This document shows, piece after piece, positions 5,611 to 15,547 of a DNA stretch of 21,936 nucleotides (the stretch's first letter is position 1; each line of letters begins with the position of its first letter). A model generated the notes under the pieces. That model was not told where the DNA came from and ran no database searches. It worked only from the letters and a program-made list of their open reading frames with translations. This DNA is from a virus: the IMG/VR virus record IMGVR_UViG_3300048586_000085, positions 1 to 21,936 of that record, one strand, 5' to 3'. A program made the position numbers and the translations under genes.

Positions 5611-5789
5611 TCACCATCACCGTTCTGGGCACCATCGGCCACGAAGCCTACGCCCAACTCCTGAGCCAGATGCAGGCCATGGAAAAGACCTCCGGCCCTG
5701 TGGCTATAGCCATAACCAACAAGCACGGTATCCCCACCCTTGAGTGGATGGACATCGCGCCTCACCAACCTACACTCTTTGACCAATGA
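5607..5789 (+). CDS. 60-residue protein ending in a clamp-binding-like motif
   Basis: Sixty residues, joined by ATGA overlaps to both neighbours, which supports it as a real gene. The N-terminal part predicts a strand-helix-strand arrangement ([20 protein letters not shown], then [12 protein letters not shown]). The C-terminus reads HQPTLFDQ, matching the Q-x-x-L-F pattern by which bacterial proteins dock on the beta sliding clamp. If functional, the peptide could bind the host or phage replication clamp. No family is recognised. Confidence 0.6.
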
Positions 5790-6292
5790 ACACATACACA
5801 CCCGACCAACTGAAAGACATCCTTGCCAAGCACGCCGCATGGCTGCGTAATGAGGAAGGAGGCCAACATGCCGACCTGAGCGGTGCCAACCTGAGCGGTG
5901 CCGACCTGAGCGATGCCGACCTGAGCGGTGCCAACCTGAGCGGTGCCTACCTGAGCCGTGCCTACCTGAGCCGTGCCGACCTGAGCGGTGCCGACCTGAG
6001 CCGTGCCGACCTGAGCCGTGCCAACCTGAGCCGTGCCGACCTGAGCGGTGCCGACCTGAGCGGTGCCGTTCACGCATGGGCACAGGTCGCATTCATGGGC
6101 CACGGAGAATGCGGACGGATGTTGACCGCAGTGATCTACAAGGAAGGCGAACTGCCGGTATATCAATGCGGATGCTTCAGCGGATCGGCGGAAGAACTCA
6201 AGGCGTACATCGACAACGGGCCAGACAACTACAAGACGTCACGGTCCCGTGCATTCGAGGTCGCAACCGAACTGCTGAACATCGGACAGTAG
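5786..6292 (+). CDS. Pentapeptide-repeat protein with C-terminal extra domain
   Basis: 168 residues. After a 28-residue helical N-terminus there are 13 consecutive pentapeptides of the form A(D/N/Y)LS(G/R/D), residues 29-93, which should fold as a short right-handed quadrilateral beta-helix. The remaining ~75 residues form a different domain with [20 protein letters not shown] and a [10 protein letters not shown] helix. Pentapeptide proteins such as Qnr and McbG mimic DNA and protect gyrase, but most phage members have no known function. The repeat DNA is a nearly perfect 15-bp tandem array, so copy number may vary. Start and stop contexts: ATGA overlap upstream, two-base gap downstream. Confidence 0.75.
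5870..6064 (+). repeat. 15-bp tandem repeat, 13 copies, coding for pentapeptides
   Basis: Thirteen in-frame copies of roughly GCCRACCTGAGCSGT are read as the pentapeptides of the surrounding gene. Divergence between copies is limited to a few positions (GAC/AAC/TAC and GGT/CGT/GAT), suggesting recent expansion by slippage or unequal recombination. Confidence 0.85.
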
Positions 6293-6964: not shown

Positions 6965-7672
6965 ATGGCGAAGAGATTCATTGATACCGACCTGTTCCGC
7001 AAGCCATTCATGAGGGGCTTGGAAGCGCCTTATAAGGCCCTTTGGATCTACCTGCTGTGCGAGTGTGACCACGCCGGGGTATGGGTGGTGGAGTTGGACG
7101 TTGCACAGATACGCATGGGCCTGAAGTTGGACCCGGATAAGGTGATTGAAAAGATGGCCGGTGCGGTTGTTCCGGTCGGCGATGGGAGCAAGTGGTTCCT
7201 GCCCGATTTCGTGACCTTCCAGTATGGCACTTTGAACCCATCGAATCGGGTCCATGCCTCGGTGATTGATCGACTTACTTCCCTTGGAATAGATCCTGAA
7301 AATAAGCCCCTTGAAAGCCCCTTAGAAGGGGCTAAGGATAAAGACAAGGATAAAGACAAGGATATTCAGGGAGGAAAGGAACGCGCGATCGCTGAACGAA
7401 TCGAAGCCTTCGCCGCCGAGGTCGAACGGATCAACGCCGAGCGCGGCACACTTCAGCCATCCGAGTTGGTGAAGTTCATCGCCCATTGGACCCAGGCCGG
7501 ACCCAACGATCGGAAGTTCCACGCCGAAAAGCAGCAGACGTTCGGGATCGCCGGTCGGCTTGTTGGCTGGGCTGGGAACGTGAAGACCTACCCGGCCAAG
7601 GGCGGAGCACCACCAGCCCCGATGGACCGGAACGCGCCGATCGAAACTGACATGGTAACCCGCAGAGCATGA
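6965..7672 (+). CDS. Phage replication initiator-like protein with winged-helix N-terminus
   Basis: 235 residues. The N-terminus (FIDTDLFRKPFMRGLEAPYK, then ALWIYLLCECDHAGVW and VELDVAQIRMGL) is the winged-helix seen in phage replisome organisers and DnaD-like proteins, including the aromatic FVTFQYG ending. A flexible linker with five KD dipeptides (residues ~125-135) separates it from a C-terminal helical domain of about 90 residues. The linker is encoded by a 12-bp DNA repeat. It is followed by a DnaC-like loader through an ATGA overlap, the usual initiator-loader pair, so it probably binds the phage origin and recruits the loader and host helicase. The origin itself was not found. Confidence 0.7.
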   Translation: MAKRFIDTDLFRKPFMRGLEAPYKALWIYLLCECDHAGVWVVELDVAQIRMGLKLDPDKVIEKMAGAVVPVGDGSKWFLPDFVTFQYGTLNPSNRVHASVIDRLTSLGIDPENKPLESPLEGAKDKDKDKDKDIQGGKERAIAERIEAFAAEVERINAERGTLQPSELVKFIAHWTQAGPNDRKFHAEKQQTFGIAGRLVGWAGNVKTYPAKGGAPPAPMDRNAPIETDMVTRRA

Positions 7673-8607
7673 AACTCCACCAGATCAAATTAGGGCTTCA
7701 AGCCAAGCTCGACGAGGTATCCGGCCGGGACGAGGGCTGGATCATCGACGACGACAACCGGGATTGCCTTCGCCGTGTGAGCGAATGGATCCACGAGGGC
7801 GACTACCGCCGAGGCTTCACGCTTCGCGGTCCTGTGGGCACCGGAAAGAGCCGGGTGGTGGAGGCTGCCGGACGGGTGTTGATCGCGCTTCACGGCAAGG
7901 GCATCCGAAGGATCGAAGCGGTTGAGTTGGTGAACATCGTGGCCAAGGCAAAAGGCGACCGATCCGTTCTGGAGAAATACGCCGACCATGTGACCTACCC
8001 GTTCCTGTGGATCGAAGACCTGGACACCGAAGGCAATGCCCCGAGCTTCGTCACCGGCGATGGCGGGATCAATTGCGTTGCGGAGCTGGTCCAAGTCAGG
8101 TACAAGCGATGGGAGCAGGGTTTGAAGATCACCACGGGCTTCACGACCAATGCGACCAACTCCCGCCTTTTGGAGCGATACGGGGAGCGGTGCTGTTCAC
8201 GGATGAATCACATGGCGCAAGTGATCCCGCTGCCTGGTCCCGACCGTAGGGCACAGAACGCCACGCTCCCGAACGTTCAGCAGCGCATTGAGTTCCACCA
8301 ACCGGCAACCTCCGAAGTTGCAACAGCGGCCCTTTCTCCCATCCTGGCAGAGTTCCAGCAAGCCCACGACCTGAGAGTTCTTGAGCGCAACCGGAACGAA
8401 GCGGAGCGGAAGGCGAAGTACTTGGATGAGCTGCGGATGAAGGTCCGGCGCTTGCAGTTGGCCGAACTCCACCAAGTGATCCAGACGGATGTATTCAGCG
8501 AAGCCAGGGACATTGCCCGTAATCAGTTCAACAGCGTTTCTCCGATCACTTACGATCAGTTCTGTGAACAACTGGAAACGGCAAGGACGGCAAGTCAGGG
8601 AGCCTGA
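7669..8607 (+). CDS. DnaC-like AAA+ helicase loader
   Basis: 312 residues. Walker A is GPVGTGKS (residues 54-61); Walker B is FLWIEDLD (112-119); a sensor-1-like TTNAT and an arginine-bearing SRLLERYGERCCSRM follow near residues 160-180, all in the order of DnaC/DnaI loaders. The C-terminal ~100 residues are helical and charged and are longer than in DnaC, possibly the surface contacting the helicase. The protein would load the host replicative helicase at the phage origin using the upstream initiator-like protein as a guide. Confidence 0.8.
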   Translation: MKLHQIKLGLQAKLDEVSGRDEGWIIDDDNRDCLRRVSEWIHEGDYRRGFTLRGPVGTGKSRVVEAAGRVLIALHGKGIRRIEAVELVNIVAKAKGDRSVLEKYADHVTYPFLWIEDLDTEGNAPSFVTGDGGINCVAELVQVRYKRWEQGLKITTGFTTNATNSRLLERYGERCCSRMNHMAQVIPLPGPDRRAQNATLPNVQQRIEFHQPATSEVATAALSPILAEFQQAHDLRVLERNRNEAERKAKYLDELRMKVRRLQLAELHQVIQTDVFSEARDIARNQFNSVSPITYDQFCEQLETARTASQGA

Positions 8608-8652: not shown

Positions 8653-9222
8653 ATGAGCCTCCCCAAGATCAGCCAAAAGCGCAAGGCCACGACCAGGCTC
8701 CGGCACAACTCCACCTTTGGAGCCAAAGCCCCGGCTAAGTCGGTGATGACCATCGCGGAGTTGAGGGCTTCGGGATTGCTGACCAAGGCATCCGAGTTGG
8801 GCAAGGGGAAGAGTGACAAGGCCAAGGCGAAGGCACGGGCTTGGAAGTGGTTTAGCATGTTCATCCGCCTTCGGGACAGTGGCCCGGACGGTCGCGGGAA
8901 GTGCATCACCTGCGATCACACCGCCCATTGGAGGGCCATGGACGCGGGCCACTACATCACACGGGCCAAGGAATCCACCTTGTTCGATGAGCGGAATGTT
9001 TCGCTCCAATGCAAGGGCTGCAACCGCTTCCAAGGCGGCAAATTCTTCGAGCATTCCCAGGCCATTGACCGCAAGTTCGGAGAGGGAACCAAGGCGGCTA
9101 TTGAGGCCAAGGCATCGCAGCCATGCCGCCGTGACCTGACCGATTACCTGTTCATCGAATCGAGCTACAAGGCCCGTGTTGACTGGATCAAGCAGCATGA
9201 GCCGACCAAGTTCAAACCATAA
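8653..9222 (+). CDS. NinG-like recombination nuclease
   Basis: 189 residues from ATG 8653; an upstream GTG (8614) is in frame but less likely because a six-codon leader frame (ATG 8636) ends exactly in ATGA over this start. The core matches the lambda NinG/Rap family: C84-x2-C87 (KCITCD), AGHYITRA at 98-105, N115 and C120-x2-C123-N124 (CKGCN), an HNH/treble-clef-like metal site. Rap is a Holliday-junction and branched-DNA endonuclease; the same activity is inferred here. It ends the replication/recombination module. Confidence 0.8.
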   Translation: MSLPKISQKRKATTRLRHNSTFGAKAPAKSVMTIAELRASGLLTKASELGKGKSDKAKAKARAWKWFSMFIRLRDSGPDGRGKCITCDHTAHWRAMDAGHYITRAKESTLFDERNVSLQCKGCNRFQGGKFFEHSQAIDRKFGEGTKAAIEAKASQPCRRDLTDYLFIESSYKARVDWIKQHEPTKFKP

Positions 9223-9232
9223 AACCTAGGCC

Positions 9233-9322
9233 ATGACATACGAAGAGGCTCCGTTTAAAAGAGGCGATGCCGCCCTCGCCTCCCTCCGGGCTGTTGGGGT
9301 AACGCCCAACGGTGGCGGGTAA
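9233..9322 (+). CDS. Possible 29-residue ORF ending in the attC-like site
   Basis: ATG 9233 to TAA 9320-9322. The peptide begins MTYEEAPFKRGDAALASL. Its stop codon is the TAA of the first attC-like inverse core, as is often the case for cassette genes. It may be the remnant of a truncated cassette gene. No independent evidence of expression. Confidence 0.25.
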   Translation: MTYEEAPFKRGDAALASLRAVGVTPNGGG

Positions 9323-9397
9323 CGGACAGAGCTTGACGCAGTGCGCCCGTGCGGTGGGTCGTGGAGCGGGGCGCATTGAGGCAAGCGTGTGTTAGGT
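9317..9397 (+). repeat. attC-like recombination site, first (81 bp)
   Basis: Inverse-core-like GGGTAAC (9317-9323), then an 18-base arm 9331-9348 (GCTTG...TGCGCCC) and its complement 9369-9386 with 15 of 18 pairs, then the core GTTAGGT (9391-9397), which fits GTTRRRY. A 20-base loop lies between arms, and the left side has three extra bases, recalling the extrahelical bases of attC hairpins. It shares TAACGGAC with the second site. Length and order R''-L''-stem-L'-R' are as in integron attC sites. Confidence 0.6.
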
Positions 9398-9422
9398 GCC
9401 GCCTTTTTCAAAACATCACCCC

Positions 9423-10079
9423 ATGAAAGTATTGATAGCGTGCGAGAGTAGCGGAACGGTTCGGGAGGCATTCCGGGCATTAGGCCATGAGGCCTGGAGC
9501 ACCGACCTGCTTCCTGCTGATGACGGTTCGCCGTACCACCTACAAGGTGACGCGCTCCAGGTTCTGGCCAATGGTTGGGATTTGATGGTCGCGCACCCGC
9601 CATGCACATACCTGAGCGTGTCGGGTATGCACTGGACCACACGCGGTCTTCGTGACCCCAAGCTAACCGAAGATGCGCTGGCGTTCGTTCGCGCACTGAT
9701 GGATGCCCCAATACCTCGGATCGCCATTGAGAACCCAGTGAGCATAATATCCAGCCGCATCCGCAAGCCTGACCAGATCATCCAGCCTTGGCAGTTCGGT
9801 GATGACGCGAGCAAAAAGACGTGCCTTTGGCTGAAGAACCTGCCCAGGCTGAACAACGAGGACAGGTCCAGGTGGATACCGGGCCGCATCGTTGGGAAGG
9901 ACAAGCGCGGAATGACGATCGTGAGATGGGCGAACCAGTGCGACAGCGGACAGAACAAGCTGGCACCTTCGGCAGACCGATGGAAGGAACGAAGCAAAAC
10001 GTACAACGGCATCGCGCAGGCGATGGCACAAACATGGGGCAATGAAGCGAGTGTGGAAACAAGTGGTCTTCTCTTTTGA
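9423..10079 (+). CDS. Putative DNA cytosine methyltransferase-like phage protein
   Basis: 218 residues from ATG 9423. It begins MKVLIACESSGTVREAF, a SAM-binding-like loop, contains HPPCTYLS (residues 58-65, motif IV-like with Cys61 as possible catalytic nucleophile) and IENP (102-105, motif VI-like ENP). Blocks RIRKPDQIIQPWQFGDDASK and CLWLKNLP are typical of a widespread phage family distantly related to C5-methyltransferases. It is much shorter than classic Dcm enzymes (~400 residues) and lacks a clear target-recognition domain, so activity on DNA is not certain. It could protect phage DNA against host restriction. It lies within a cassette-like unit and overlaps the next gene by 38 bases. 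Confidence 0.7.
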   Translation: MKVLIACESSGTVREAFRALGHEAWSTDLLPADDGSPYHLQGDALQVLANGWDLMVAHPPCTYLSVSGMHWTTRGLRDPKLTEDALAFVRALMDAPIPRIAIENPVSIISSRIRKPDQIIQPWQFGDDASKKTCLWLKNLPRLNNEDRSRWIPGRIVGKDKRGMTIVRWANQCDSGQNKLAPSADRWKERSKTYNGIAQAMAQTWGNEASVETSGLLF

Positions 10080-10269
10080 GTTCGGCGAGGATGCCGACCA
10101 GCCGTGTCCGCAGTGCGCGGAGTTCGACGGCTGCTGTGATTGCCCTGGGCCGAACAGCGAAACCGAAGACGGAACGCCGTTCGAGTTCAAGGAAGTTCAT
10201 GGGGTGATGTTCGCTCGCCCTCCCCGTGGCTATGACTGGTCGGGCGAGCGTCTTTCAGGTGGCACCTAA
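10042..10269 (+). CDS. Small Cys-rich protein paired with the methyltransferase-like gene
   Basis: 75 residues. An N-terminal strand (RVWKQVVFSFEFG) is followed by CPQCAEFDGCCDCPGP (residues ~22-37), a dense cysteine cluster fit for zinc, and FEFKEVHGVMFARP. Similar CDCPGP proteins occur in many phages, but no function is known to me. Its stop TAA is part of the inverse core ACCTAAC of the second attC-like site, an arrangement typical of cassette genes. Confidence 0.6.
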   Translation: MKRVWKQVVFSFEFGEDADQPCPQCAEFDGCCDCPGPNSETEDGTPFEFKEVHGVMFARPPRGYDWSGERLSGGT

Positions 10270-10322
10270 CGGACGAGTGCATACGGCGTTGGCTCTGCAA
10301 TGCCGTATGCACGTAGTTGTAC
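10264..10322 (+). repeat. attC-like recombination site, second (59 bp)
   Basis: ACCTAAC (10264-10270, fits RYYYAAC) is followed by GGACGA, a perfect 11-bp arm GTGCATACGGC (10277-10287), a 14-base loop, the complementary arm GCCGTATGCAC (10302-10312), three bases, and GTTGTAC (10316-10322, GTTRRRY with one deviation). The whole fits a compact attC. Confidence 0.6.
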
Positions 10323-10575
10323 GGCGTTCTCTTTTCAGGCATTAAGTAAAAGGCAACAGGCATGAACAAGTGGATAAGCGTAAAGGAGCAAAGGCCAGAG
10401 GCGTACACATGGGTGCTGGTGTACTGTGATACCGGAGACGTTGGCGACTTCCCATTCGATATCGGGCGAATTATCAGCGGAGAATGGAGGTGCCTTGGAT
10501 GGGACTACCCTGTGACACACTGGATGCCTTTGCCCAAAGCTCCAAGTGGTAATTGAATGCCGTACAACTAGGATG
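10317..10575 (+). mobile_element. Integron-like gene cassette 2, lacking a full attC stem
   Basis: The leading GTTGTACGGC (10316-10325) is the exact reverse complement of GCCGTACAAC (10559-10568) directly after the DUF551 stop codon. Instead of a long stem, only six bases (TAGGAT) separate this inverse core from another GTTGTAC (10575-10581), so the recombination site appears to be collapsed. Either the site is deleted or this marks the junction back to phage DNA. Confidence 0.45.
10362..10556 (+). CDS. DUF551-like protein
   Basis: 64 residues. The sequence NKWISVKEQRPEAYTWVLVY at the start and VTHWMPLPKAPSG at the end are the signature of DUF551, a small domain common in phage early regions. 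Function is unknown. It is the only gene of the second cassette-like unit. The start is preceded by an A-rich stretch (about 10345-10361) usable as a Bacteroidota translation-start region. Confidence 0.75.
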   Translation: MNKWISVKEQRPEAYTWVLVYCDTGDVGDFPFDIGRIISGEWRCLGWDYPVTHWMPLPKAPSGN

Positions 10576-10617
10576 TTGTACCAATTAACATAATGTAGCC
10601 GTCCAACAAACGACAGC

Positions 10618-10968
10618 ATGAGCACACCAGAACGACCCACGAAAACAGCCGATGAGCAGGCGGCAGAGCGGTATCAATCCAGCAATGAGGACGGCTACCT
10701 TGTCGTGAGGGACATGGCCCAGCCAAAAGGCCACCGTATAATGAGCATGATGGACCCCAAGGATGCAAGTCATGTGGACTGGATCAGGAGGGGCTACGCA
10801 GCCGCCCTTGTCGAACGCGCCATCCCCGCAGAGCAGGCCCTGAGGCTGGCGATGGAGTATGTCAAGGCATTGGGTGTCTACTACCAGACGGGTAACGCAA
10901 AGCAGGAGCGGGACGCATGGAGCGCCCTCCGTGCCGACCCAATCGCCGCTAAGATGCTCGAGGATTAG
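10618..10968 (+). CDS. Protein of unknown function
   Basis: 116 residues, hydrophilic N-terminus (MSTPERPTKTADEQAAERYQ) and two probable helices in the second half (SHVDWIRRGYAAALVERA and EQALRLAMEYVKALGVYYQ). It is the first gene after the cassette-like region. No motif or family recognised. Confidence 0.55.
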   Translation: MSTPERPTKTADEQAAERYQSSNEDGYLVVRDMAQPKGHRIMSMMDPKDASHVDWIRRGYAAALVERAIPAEQALRLAMEYVKALGVYYQTGNAKQERDAWSALRADPIAAKMLED

Positions 10969-11653: not shown

Positions 11654-11811
11654 AGCACGAGTTCATCCTGTGGGGCCGTGTGGATTCCGGGCTGAGGTCC
11701 GCCAGCACCTACACCCGTCACGGGGTGGTCACGATGCGTGCGTGTGAGGAGGCGGTTGCCGCTGCGCCGTATTGCGGGTGTCCGTTGAACGTAAGACAGA
11801 GCACGAAATGA
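11650..11811 (+). CDS. 53-residue protein of unknown function
   Basis: The start ATG 11650 and the stop are both in ATGA junctions. A strand (KHEFILWGRVDSG) and a helix (TMRACEEAVAAAPYCGC) with three cysteines are visible. It is too short for further inference. Confidence 0.5.
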   Translation: MKHEFILWGRVDSGLRSASTYTRHGVVTMRACEEAVAAAPYCGCPLNVRQSTK

Positions 11812-12401
11812 GCGCGAAGAAGGCACCTCGACAGGAATCCAAGGTAAAAGGGGTGTCCCATGAGGGGAGCATTTCCGGGCCTTTGGGATTCCAAGTCACA
11901 CCCGTTTCAAAGCTTAAGGCGAACCCGACGAACCCGCGCGTCCTGCGGGATGAGAAGTTCGCCAAGCTCAAAGCGTCCATCCAGTCCTTCCCGGACATGC
12001 TCAATTACCGGGGCATCGTGGCTGTGACCGACACAGATGGAAGGTTCATGGTCCTTGGCGGTAACATGCGCCTTCGTGCGTTGCAAGATCTCGGCATCAA
12101 AGAAGTGGCGGTGATGCTTGCCGACCACTGGACCGAAGAGCAGCGCCGTGAGTTCATCATAAAGGACAACGTGGGCTTCGGGGAATGGGATTGGGACCAG
12201 CTGGCGAACGAATGGGATGCGGGGGAGTTGAGTGAGTGGGGGCTTGACCTGCCGAAAGACCCATTGCCAGCCGATGAAGGCCAAGAGGACTACATGCCCG
12301 GCTTTCGTCTGGTGATCGAATGCACCAGCGAGGCTCAGCAACAACAGTACTTCAAAGAGATCACCAACCTTGGTATCGAATGCAAGCCATTGACATTGTG
12401 A
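11808..12401 (+). CDS. ParB/sulfiredoxin-like domain protein
   Basis: 197 residues from ATG 11808 (ATGA junction). Residues ~25-100 form a ParB/Srx-like domain: FQVTPVSKLKANPTNPRVL, MLNYRGIVAVTDTDGRFMVL and the hallmark GGNMRLRAL (84-92). The following KDNVGFGEWDWDQLANEWD block is typical of phage ParB-like proteins that occur next to DNA modification or terminase genes. ParB/Srx folds bind or hydrolyse nucleotides, and some are nucleases. The end overlaps the ABC/GNAT gene by 22 bases. A role in DNA modification together with the next genes is inferred from context only. Confidence 0.75.
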   Translation: MSAKKAPRQESKVKGVSHEGSISGPLGFQVTPVSKLKANPTNPRVLRDEKFAKLKASIQSFPDMLNYRGIVAVTDTDGRFMVLGGNMRLRALQDLGIKEVAVMLADHWTEEQRREFIIKDNVGFGEWDWDQLANEWDAGELSEWGLDLPKDPLPADEGQEDYMPGFRLVIECTSEAQQQQYFKEITNLGIECKPLTL

Positions 12402-13348
12402 TCGAGAGCGAGGTGCCGCGCACCTTCCGGACATCTTCATTGGAGAGCGTCTTCGACTGCCCCATCGGCAAGAAGCAGCGCCTCGAATGGCATGTGGAGA
12501 TACCTGGCCCAGAAGACGAATGGAGCATCGGCATGATCGTAGGCCCGTCAGGATCTGGTAAGTCCACCGTAATGAAGCACGCCTATGGAGAGCCGATCGA
12601 ATGGAAGTGGCCCCACGATAAGGCATTGGTCGACGCGCTAGCCCCGGAGAAGCAGATGACCGAGGTGAGCGCCGCCCTTGGGGCTGTGGGGCTGAACACC
12701 ATCCCATCATGGGCGCGACCGTTCCACGTACTGAGCAACGGGGAGCAGTTCCGGGCGATCATCGCCCGCCACTTCCTTGAGGACGAACGCGACCCCATCG
12801 TGATCGACGAGTTCACGTCCGTAGTGGATCGCCAAGTGGCACAAATCGCCAGCCACGCCGTTCAGAAGTTCATCCGCAAGAACAACAAGCGCTTCGTCGC
12901 CGTCACGTGCCACTACGACATCATCGAATGGCTGCAACCCGATTGGGTTCTGGACATGGCTACCGGGCGGGTCGAGCGCCCGGAACGAAGGCGACGACCA
13001 GCCATCGAGGTCACCTTGGCGCGTGTACCTCGAAGCCTCTGGGCGACCTTTGCGCCGTATCACTATATGAGCGCCGAACTACATAAGGCGGCACAGTGTT
13101 ACGCAGCGTTCGTGCATGATCGACCGGTGTGCATCGCGGCTATGATGTACAGACCCGCACCTACGGGTAAGAAGCATTCTCCTGTGTATGGGTTGAGTAG
13201 GTTGGTTACTCTACCAGACTACCAAGGGCTGGGCCTTGCATTCGTCCTTGCCGATGCCTTGGGCGGCAAGGCTCGCCAACCGAGGGGAGCGAATGAACGC
13301 ATACCCAGCACATCCTGCATTGATCGCCTCATTCGCTCGGAACGATAA
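12380..13348 (+). CDS. ABC-type ATPase fused to a GNAT acetyltransferase-like domain, frameshifted
   Basis: 322 residues as read. N-terminal ABC ATPase: Walker A GPSGSGKST (55-63), signature-like LSNGE (118-122), Walker B IVIDEFTSVVD (140-150, DE at 143-144) and H-loop THC-like VTCHYD (H178). There are no membrane segments, so it is not a transporter. The second half (from ~210) is GNAT-like with LSRLVTLPDY and the acetyl-CoA loop QGLGLA (283-288), reminiscent of the Mu Mom DNA-modification family. The frame then drifts at about residue 300: the downstream sequence expected for this fold continues in another frame (13288-13469). A probable role is nucleic-acid base modification or DNA-end sensing, inferred from the neighbouring ParB and ASCH genes. 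Confidence 0.7.
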   Translation: MQAIDIVIESEVPRTFRTSSLESVFDCPIGKKQRLEWHVEIPGPEDEWSIGMIVGPSGSGKSTVMKHAYGEPIEWKWPHDKALVDALAPEKQMTEVSAALGAVGLNTIPSWARPFHVLSNGEQFRAIIARHFLEDERDPIVIDEFTSVVDRQVAQIASHAVQKFIRKNNKRFVAVTCHYDIIEWLQPDWVLDMATGRVERPERRRRPAIEVTLARVPRSLWATFAPYHYMSAELHKAAQCYAAFVHDRPVCIAAMMYRPAPTGKKHSPVYGLSRLVTLPDYQGLGLAFVLADALGGKARQPRGANERIPSTSCIDRLIRSER

Positions 13349-13800: not shown

Positions 13801-14169
13801 ATGGGAACAGCAAACCTCAAGCCCTTCAAGAAGGGGCAGACAGGCAACCCCAAAGGACGCCCGCCAAAGCTACTGTCCGCCATGGTCAGGGAGTTAAAAG
13901 AGCAGGGCTACGAACGGGTCGGCCCATCGACCATGCTGCACACCATTGAGACAATGATCGGGCTGCCTACATCCAAGCTGGAGGCCATGTCTTCAGACGC
14001 GGACGCTCCTATTGCACAGCGGATCATTGCCACGCACCTTTTGAGCAAGACCGACCGCTTGCGGCTGTTCATGGAATTGCTGGACCGTGCCCACGGCAAG
14101 GCGAAGCAATCGGTGGACCTGAACGAATCGGGCAACGTCACCCACACGATCACATTCAAGCGTGGCTAA
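13801..14169 (+). CDS. Terminase small subunit (putative, DUF5681-like N-terminus)
   Basis: 122 residues. It opens with LKPFKKGQTGNPKGRPPKL, the GQSGNPxGRP motif of DUF5681, which occurs on small terminase or DNA-packaging proteins. The middle (TMLHTIETMIGLPTSKLEAM and IAQRIIATHLLS) is helical, as expected of a DNA-recognition subunit. It overlaps the large subunit by 8 bases. Assignment rests on this motif plus the position. Confidence 0.7.
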   Translation: MGTANLKPFKKGQTGNPKGRPPKLLSAMVRELKEQGYERVGPSTMLHTIETMIGLPTSKLEAMSSDADAPIAQRIIATHLLSKTDRLRLFMELLDRAHGKAKQSVDLNESGNVTHTITFKRG

Positions 14170-15547
14170 CATCGAGATCGAACTGCCCACCCTTGCGCCG
14201 TTCCAGGAGGAATGGCTGAAGGCCACGGAGCGGTTCATAGCCATTGAGGGAGCCACAGGAACGGGGAAGACCTACGTCTGGGAGCCTGAAGTGTTCAAGG
14301 AAGGGCACGATGTGTCCAACCGCGGTGATGAGTTCTGGTGGGTATCCCCGACCATTGCCCAGGCCCGAGCCGTTTACGACAACATCAAACGATCCCTTCA
14401 GGATGCCGGTGTTCTGCACCTGTACCGATGCGTTGACACCTTGCGCGAGATCCACACGCCCGAGGGTGGCATCCTGTGCTACCATACCGGGGAAGACCCC
14501 AACAGCCTCTTTGGTATCCGTAACGTTCGGATGATCGTGGTGGATGAGTTCACCCGCTGCCGGATGAGCTTGTGGCCGGCCTTGCTGTCCGTGGCCAATA
14601 AGACCGGGTGCCGTGTGATCTTCATCGGGAACTACCAGGGGGATGATACGGAGTGGCACCTATGGGTCAAGAAGATGATGGCCACGCCTAACTTCAGGTA
14701 CTTCAGGACCACGGCGTTGGAAGCTGTAGCGGCCGGGATCATGCCACAGGAGGCCATGGATACGGCCAGGGCCACGCTACCAGAGGGGATCTTCAACGCC
14801 CTTTACCTGTGCCAAGGGTCCAGCGACCCGAGCCTATTGGTCCGCCATGCTGCAGTTGCCGACCTGTGGAGCAATTCGTTCGTCCCTGAAGGAAAGAAGG
14901 CGCTGACCTGTGACATCGCCCTGCATGGGTCCGATCGGTTCGTCATGCACGCATGGAGTGGGATGATACTGAAGGAAATCACCGTGTTGACCAAGCGCGA
15001 TGCCAGTGACGTGACCGCCATCATCCAAGGCAAGGCGATCGAACACCAGGTGCCACGACATAACATAGTGTACGATGCGGATGGGCTTGGGGCGTACCTG
15101 AAAGGCTACCTTCAAGGAGCCACACCATACCAAGGGGGCCGGGCATCGGAGCCACAGCAGGGGCAAAAGATGAGCTACCAGAACCTTCGCAGCCAGTGTC
15201 ACTTCCTTGCCGCCGATGCGATCAACGATGGGAAGATGTGGATCGACACGGACGCCTACCGGGACGAACTGGAGCCGGAGATATTCGCCTGCCTTCGGAC
15301 CAGTGGACAGGACGCCGCGCTACGTTGGGGCATCATACCAAAGGACAGCGATAACCCCAAGATGCCGGGGGCGAAGCGTAGGCTTGGACGGTCGCCCGAC
15401 CTGTTCGACCCGATCCCGATGCGTATGTTCCTTGAAATGACCCCTTCGCCCATGTTCCTGGACCAGACCAAGCAGCTCGCAGACCGGGAGAGAAAGCGTA
15501 TTGTTCTGCGGAGGGATAAGCCATCAACTACATTTGGGGAACGATGA
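14162..15547 (+). CDS. terL: Terminase large subunit
   Basis: 461 residues from GTG 14162, inside the end of the small subunit. The ATPase domain has Walker A GATGTGKT (30-37) and Walker B MIVVDE (124-129, catalytic E129), with WVSPTIAQARAVYD as the adenine-side block and VIFIGNYQGDD as coupling motif-like. The nuclease domain starts near LTCDIALHGSDRF with an acidic DI that fits the first RNase H-fold aspartate, followed by IVYDADGLGAYLKGYL, where the second acidic residue lies. The enzyme pumps and cuts phage DNA at the portal. Its last codons contain a possible promoter for downstream genes. Confidence 0.9.
   Translation: MANIEIELPTLAPFQEEWLKATERFIAIEGATGTGKTYVWEPEVFKEGHDVSNRGDEFWWVSPTIAQARAVYDNIKRSLQDAGVLHLYRCVDTLREIHTPEGGILCYHTGEDPNSLFGIRNVRMIVVDEFTRCRMSLWPALLSVANKTGCRVIFIGNYQGDDTEWHLWVKKMMATPNFRYFRTTALEAVAAGIMPQEAMDTARATLPEGIFNALYLCQGSSDPSLLVRHAAVADLWSNSFVPEGKKALTCDIALHGSDRFVMHAWSGMILKEITVLTKRDASDVTAIIQGKAIEHQVPRHNIVYDADGLGAYLKGYLQGATPYQGGRASEPQQGQKMSYQNLRSQCHFLAADAINDGKMWIDTDAYRDELEPEIFACLRTSGQDAALRWGIIPKDSDNPKMPGAKRRLGRSPDLFDPIPMRMFLEMTPSPMFLDQTKQLADRERKRIVLRRDKPSTTFGER
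15526..15536 (+). promoter_or_regulatory. Possible late promoter -7 element inside the terL end
   Basis: AACTACATTTG is an 11-base exact copy of the -7 region of the early promoter at 1601-1611. ATG follows after 7 bases, compared with 8 at the early promoter. A canonical TTTG is not found 21 bases upstream (TTG lies 25 upstream), so strength is uncertain and an activator may be needed. If used, the message would be near leaderless. Confidence 0.35.

Follow-up and report, generated by a model that had tools for sequence, protein, structure and literature searches.

Whether the genes lying between NinG and the ORF at 10618 of this phage are mobile cassettes, and to which cassette family they would then belong, is the question raised by this locus. 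The stretch of DNA analysed here, hereafter the window, is a viral contig of 21,936 bases classed as linear, which often means a fragment, and the interval in question holds two gene units (Table 1). The original prediction, made from the sequence, took them for integron cassettes carried by a phage, a reading that is right as to the kind of element and wrong as to the family.

Table 1. Features of the cassette region and its landmarks, in positions of the window
Feature	Position	Strand	Remarks
DnaC-like loader	7669-8607		family match; left of the cassette region
NinG	8656-9222		family match; nearest gene left of the cassette region
29-aa ORF	9233-9322	+	TAA stop falls in the R'' box of site A; perhaps what is left of an earlier unit
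Site A, R'' GGGTAAC	9317-9323	+	putative crossover 9322/9323
Site A, hairpin	9324-9390	+	arms 9331-9347 and 9370-9386; spacers 7 nt (left) and 4 nt (right)
Cassette 1, start GTTAGGTGCCGCC	9391-9403	+	position 11 is G; R' GTTAGGT at 9391-9397
Cassette 1, DNA methyltransferase	9423-10079	+	phrog_757, E 3.5e-63
Cassette 1, small Cys-rich ORF	10042-10269	+	TAA stop within R'' of site B
Cassette 1, end GGTGGCACCTAAC	10258-10270	+	R'' ACCTAAC of site B at 10264-10270; putative crossover 10269/10270
Site B, hairpin	10271-10315	+	arms 10277-10291 and 10298-10312, 93% complementary
Cassette 2, start GTTGTACGGCGTTC	10316-10329	+	position 11 is G; R' GTTGTAC at 10316-10322
Cassette 2, DUF551 gene	10362-10556	+	PF04448, E 2.1e-10
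Cassette 2, end GAATGCCGTACAAC	10555-10568	+	putative crossover 10567/10568
Site C, GTACAAC-TAGGAT-GTTGTAC	10562-10581	+	collapsed; bare 7-bp palindrome without inner stem
Next ORF	10618-10968	+	49 nt past the last R''; no family match, not a recombinase
TerL	14162-15547		family match; farther right

Unit 1 (9391-10270) comprises the methyltransferase gene and the small Cys-rich ORF, and unit 2 (10316-10568) the DUF551 gene; all three cassette genes lie on the plus strand, and their stop codons sit within or right before the R'' boxes. Both units begin and end with exact 10-bp reverse complements, matched in 10 of 10 bases (9391-9400 with 10261-10270, and 10316-10325 with 10559-10568), and each pair extends to 13-16 bases with a single mismatch at base 11, the ends reading GTTAGGTGCC[G]CC against GTTAGGTGCC[A]CC and GTTGTACGGC[G]TTC against GTTGTACGGC[A]TTC. 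The coordinates and the two 10-bp pairs of the original prediction were correct, and were also recovered independently by a finder; likewise, the collapsed third site announced behind the DUF551 cassette is borne out as site C, and the phage-type cargo expected in the units is present in the form of the methyltransferase. The hairpin of site A is imperfect, with three arm mismatches and no bulge, while that of site B has a left spacer of 6 nt (GGACGA), a right spacer of 3 nt (GTA) and a stem without a bulged base. Site C may be a site that suffered a deletion, or else an attI-like end that has diverged. At the R'' of site A the 15-mer ACGGTGGCGGGTAAC carries a T at position 11 of the cassette family described below, and the expected start of the preceding unit, GTTACCCGCC (GTTACCC), is absent from the window. 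A small inverted repeat, GTTGGG-GTAACG-CCCAAC (9293-9310), stands immediately to the left of site A, with a box order that is the reverse of that of a cassette site.

Another phage, L001, carries a methyltransferase 90% identical in amino acids to the copy of the window, without hairpins, and right after it a Cys-rich ORF 64% identical over 58 residues. The homologous block falls entirely within cassette 1, so that the methyltransferase/Cys-rich pair exists in two settings, as ordinary genes of a phage and in a cassette. Nested within cassette 1 is also a perfect 16-bp inverted repeat, AACATCACCCCATGAA / TTCATGGGGTGATGTT (9412-9427 and 10196-10211), which spans the methyltransferase start codon and is missing in L001. 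Close relatives of the phage were sought with TerL and NinG and none was found, and the RecT, DUF551 and methyltransferase searches returned distant relatives or isolated shared genes only, leaving no empty site for comparison. Elsewhere in the window, a pentapeptide-repeat-like protein is encoded at 5786-6292, where DNA repeats some 60 bp long stand in tandem (5869-6068) and are 91-92% identical, and a protein at 12320-13348, adjoined by an ORF that is ParB-like in appearance (11772-12401), matches both ABC-type ATPases and GNAT acetyltransferases, possibly for DNA modification.

Among viral contigs, near-identical sites were found in the Polaribacter phage P12002L only, and these are built like the sites of the window (TAACGGACGAGTATATACG... 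compared with TAACGGACGAGTGCATACG... of site B). As the P12002L sites are of this make, their geometry was used as a search pattern, which led to a cassette family: 24 viral contigs matched, carrying tandem cassettes in arrays of up to about ten, and none of the 296 genomes of the sampled phylum did. With blastn, site B gave chance stretches only in these 296 genomes and no match in plasmids. The ends of the phage arrays agree over 15 bases save position 11, where the start has G and the reverse-complemented end has A, a mismatch equivalent to a G.T pair on the gene strand that both window units possess. This position was not imposed, and G/A is nevertheless found there in 25 of 26 cassettes of bacterial arrays, whereas none of 18 cassettes from canonical integron arrays has it. 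The family signature was accordingly taken as a 10-bp end pair, G/A at position 11 and then at least three of four bases matched, and both window units carry it. Family spacers measure 5-6 nt on the left and 2-3 nt on the right, the left being the longer, as in the 6/3 of site B and the 7/4 of site A, and nearly all ORFs in family arrays are on the plus strand relative to the site, as they are in the window.

A covariance model of the phage family, R2, was built from AT-rich sites and finds five P12002L sites outside its training set with E-values of 1e-9 to 0.006. In the window, which is GC-rich, its sole and top hit is site B (10260-10330, 13.9 bits, E 0.19), and site A is unmatched, so that the assignment of the window to the family is carried mostly by the end signature and the geometry and less by the model. 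R2 gave no hits in the canonical arrays searched, those of phages included, and, conversely, a model of canonical sites, R1, sees canonical arrays and is near background on the window sites. Family sites also occur in 14 of the 149 genomes of a class sample (the class to which a Flavobacteriales genome belongs, presumably Bacteroidia, as group names are here presumptive), and the signature of the bacterial arrays L371, L372 and L374 is identical to that of the phage family; an integron integrase is present in one of these 149 genomes, outside the 14 with family sites. As regards the units that the original prediction proposed to seek in other phages or hosts, related arrays exist in phages and in Bacteroidia, and near-identical sites, among viral contigs, in P12002L only. 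In the phylum sample, integron integrases score above the cut-off in 104 of 395 genomes, compared with the single genome of the class sample, so that other classes of the phylum seem to be the home of canonical integrons. In the arrays L331, L338, L339 and L348 hairpin lengths cluster near 40, 80 and 118 nt, and several of the 118-nt sites contain a start codon within the hairpin, in a frame that crosses R' into the next cassette.

The bacterial arrays are adjoined by a tyrosine recombinase that retains the catalytic residues in alignment A3 and is present in 106 of 295 genomes. It reaches 194 bits for the integron-integrase family, the cut-off of which is 265, and is devoid of some 42 residues that IntI4 (PDB 2A3V) has at that place, an insertion on which the function of integrons is reported to depend (PMC8138268). 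An attI-like TATAnnnnAGTTA, followed by a cassette end, lies about 80-104 bp beyond the recombinase stop in at least 22 of 28 bacterial loci, compared with 64 of 5,278 background windows; every cassette detected at the bacterial loci is directed at the recombinase, and several of them finish precisely on this junction. Contigs tend to break at the same place: 13 recombinase hits have their 3' side less than 300 bases from a contig start, compared with one for the 5' side, and contigs L401 and L405 terminate exactly at the attI-like GTT(A), two contig ends reading ..AAGTTA and ..GAGTT. Such breaks are expected if that point varies between cells, and the ends of L401 and L405 are a sign of variation within a population. 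A scan with A3 further revealed phage recombinases of 40-49% identity. Upstream sequence sufficed at 59 distinct phage loci; in 53 of them signature cassettes lie immediately upstream, on the strand of the recombinase (two or more cassettes in 44), the junction TAAC|TATTATATATA...ATG being conserved and cassettes being almost lacking downstream. A phrog_2 terminase match, in a search that also matches most control bacteria, is found in 10 of 26 such phage records, so at least those 10 are phage-like. A recombinase start 36 or 52 nt past the last R'' is frequent in these phage platforms; in the window, the ORF at 10618 lies 49 nt past the last R''.

With this family at hand, other origins of the window units may be weighed. 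That the hairpins are unrelated palindromic terminators, or inverted repeats that flank phage genes by chance, is hardly credible. Taken singly, they are moderately stable compared with shuffled sequences, and their folding free energies alone are moderately unusual (z of -1.8 to -3.7 for the window sites); Rfam gave no matches. However, a hairpin plus a 10/10 pair with both stems as strong as in the window was met in none of 2,058 dinucleotide shuffles, not one of 11,422 shuffles of the window held two signature pairs, and the signature recurs in tens of arrays tied to a recombinase. The finder, which requires hairpins on both sides and matched ends, returned the A-B unit of the window; over about 2.5 Mb of other loci, its one further find was the integron array already known from Shewanella phage M16-3. 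Matched ends of 10 bp are in fact normal for integron cassettes, as seen in M16-3, the positive control, and in 79 cassettes from integron arrays, and bona fide pairs such as GTTAGGTGGC...GCCACCTAAC speak for a capture by the phage of canonical cassettes with attC sites recognised by IntI. To this may be added that the R' GTTAGGT fits GTTRRRY and that the published array of phage TJE1 also holds DUF551-like and methyltransferase genes. In the window, GTTAGGT/ACCTAAC match the core sites GTTRRRY/RYYYAAC and GTTGTAC/GTACAAC do not strictly do so, a departure also seen in the bona fide GTTATAC/GTATAAC. Nevertheless, the canonical origin is improbable. The R1 model, built from 31 attC sites of integron arrays, recovers sites of M16-3, TJE1 and MW202573 (about 13-26 bits), the last two being phage arrays left out of its training, but gives 3.3 bits to site A, on the minus strand, and 1.8 bits to site B, both near background, its best hit in the window being elsewhere. 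Bona fide attC sites have a spacer of about 2 nt after R'', one of about 6 nt before R' and a bulged base in the left arm, whereas the window spacers are mirrored and no bulge is present. On these scores and spacers classical attC membership fails, and as G/A at position 11 is moreover absent from the 18 cassettes of canonical arrays, canonical attC was rejected for the window sites. Background scores for both hairpins were the very outcome that the original prediction had named as its refutation, and its reading of them as attC sites is thereby given up; what stands is the reading as cassette units with matched ends, integron-like in kind, which, judged from the many related arrays, would work as integron cassettes do.

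It is harder to judge whether a single arrival brought in cassettes of the new family that are by now fixed phage genes with inactive sites, a view compatible with family membership. The collapse of site C, the divergence of site A from the family model and the missing start of the preceding unit all point that way, as does the composition of the record, in which a profile search over all 21,936 bases gave no TIGR02249 match for an integron integrase and no recombinase of any such type is present. However, the end pairs are intact to 13-16 bases bar the family mismatch, when an old relic would decay, and family arrays devoid of a recombinase are common, so that we hold a relic to be possible but rather doubtful. 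From the comparisons described above, we regard 9323-10568 as probably a two-cassette array of an integron-like system of Bacteroidota and their phages, distinct from classical IntI/attC. Given the lack of a recombinase, the collapsed site C and the diverged site A, this array may be mobile in trans only, or may be a relic.

Seen directly are the build of the cassettes, their signature, the existence of a family and the association of its arrays with the recombinase. Each cassette begins with GTT(A/G)-N6-G-NNN and closes with the reverse complement, save for the fixed G.T pair at position 11, and the hairpin between neighbouring cassettes, with a spacer of 5-7 nt after R'' and one of 2-4 nt before R', is a mirror image of attC. 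As to catalysis, crossover point, host and present-day mobility, we infer the following course of events. Once the cassette is circularised, its end, hairpin and start are predicted to fold as one long stem, which a XerA/IntI-like tyrosine recombinase without the IntI insertion would cut at GTT, on the strand opposite the genes. The enzyme would then move cassettes into the attI-like site by its own gene, with the cassette genes directed toward it. For the array of the window, since the record holds no recombinase, movement would require one supplied in trans, by the host or by a co-infecting phage. The mirror geometry and the junction together suggest an exchange at G|TT opposite the genes, equivalent to the AA|C of each R'' (Table 1), and the cut points of the original prediction, 9391, 10316 and 10575, are less likely. 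The hairpin would consequently travel with the gene downstream of it. A comparison of shared segments, in which most blocks begin at the AAC of R'' and continue into the downstream leader, mostly fits such a crossover; a first reading of the same segments, with the hairpin travelling with the upstream gene, was dropped, as the hairpins concerned differ and the blocks start at AAC.

The cassette system looks widespread in Bacteroidota bacteria and phages. We think it likely that both run a cassette exchange parallel to integrons, with another recombinase, mirror-image sites bearing the position-11 G.T pair and genes that face the recombinase, in which phages would carry complete platforms (array, attI and recombinase) as well as stray arrays and swap, for example, anti-restriction methyltransferases. 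The Bacteroidia sample is almost devoid of classical integrons, yet the second type of recombinase is common; standard tools may overlook the system, as its enzyme does not reach the IntI threshold and a model trained on attC gives its sites scores near background. If true, a large bacterial phylum and its viruses own an unrecorded gene-swapping platform, two inventions of one trick, or one invention mirrored, become directly comparable, and complete phage-borne platforms would make the rapid swapping of anti-defence genes testable in culture.

The carriage of cassettes by phages is in itself a published idea. Qi et al. 2023 (PMC9892861) described phage cassette arrays (CALINs) with methyltransferases that are used by IntI1, and reported recombination of P12002L_attC2 with IntI1, so that the original prediction of a new route for phage gene swapping had been preceded. 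P12002L itself, published as a phage CALIN, belongs by its sites to the Bacteroidota/phage family. A separate recombinase, mirrored sites and a fixed position-11 pair are not found in the literature searched, and a Bacteroidota integron-like, non-IntI system of reversed polarity was likewise not found in the open-licence literature, a scope outside which bioRxiv and most subscription journals fall. The array of Tetrasphaera phage TJE1 (L214) resembles that of the window in its gene content, its first gene, in the interval 77-321, encoding a DUF551-like protein that shares, by eye, the WMPLP motif with the DUF551 protein of the window, and in a collapsed R''-R' site, GGCATAACAAGTTATGCC (304-321), like site C; it differs in that the attC model recognises its sites (15-18 bits) and R2 does not. 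The best family match of the recombinases is with the XerA-like simple tyrosine recombinases (NF040815; PDB 5hxy), at 208-217 bits for the bacterial and 186-197 bits for the phage forms against a cut-off of 220, and the catalytic residues are conserved. XerA-like enzymes, however, act on a dif site, whereas the array-linked genes lie next to cassette arrays, at a junction that is conserved, and the bacterial array-linked form is extended by about 95 residues at its N-terminus. With integrons and CALINs the family shares arrays of small units, hairpins between units, TAAC/GTTA boxes, unit starts complementary to their own ends, an attI-like junction by a tyrosine recombinase and carriage by phages with methyltransferase cargo. 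It differs from them in its spacers (5-7/2-4 instead of about 2/6), in its fixed position-11 G.T pair and longer end match, in genes that face the recombinase, in an enzyme that is devoid of the IntI insertion and falls below the IntI cut-off, and in sites to which the attC model is blind.
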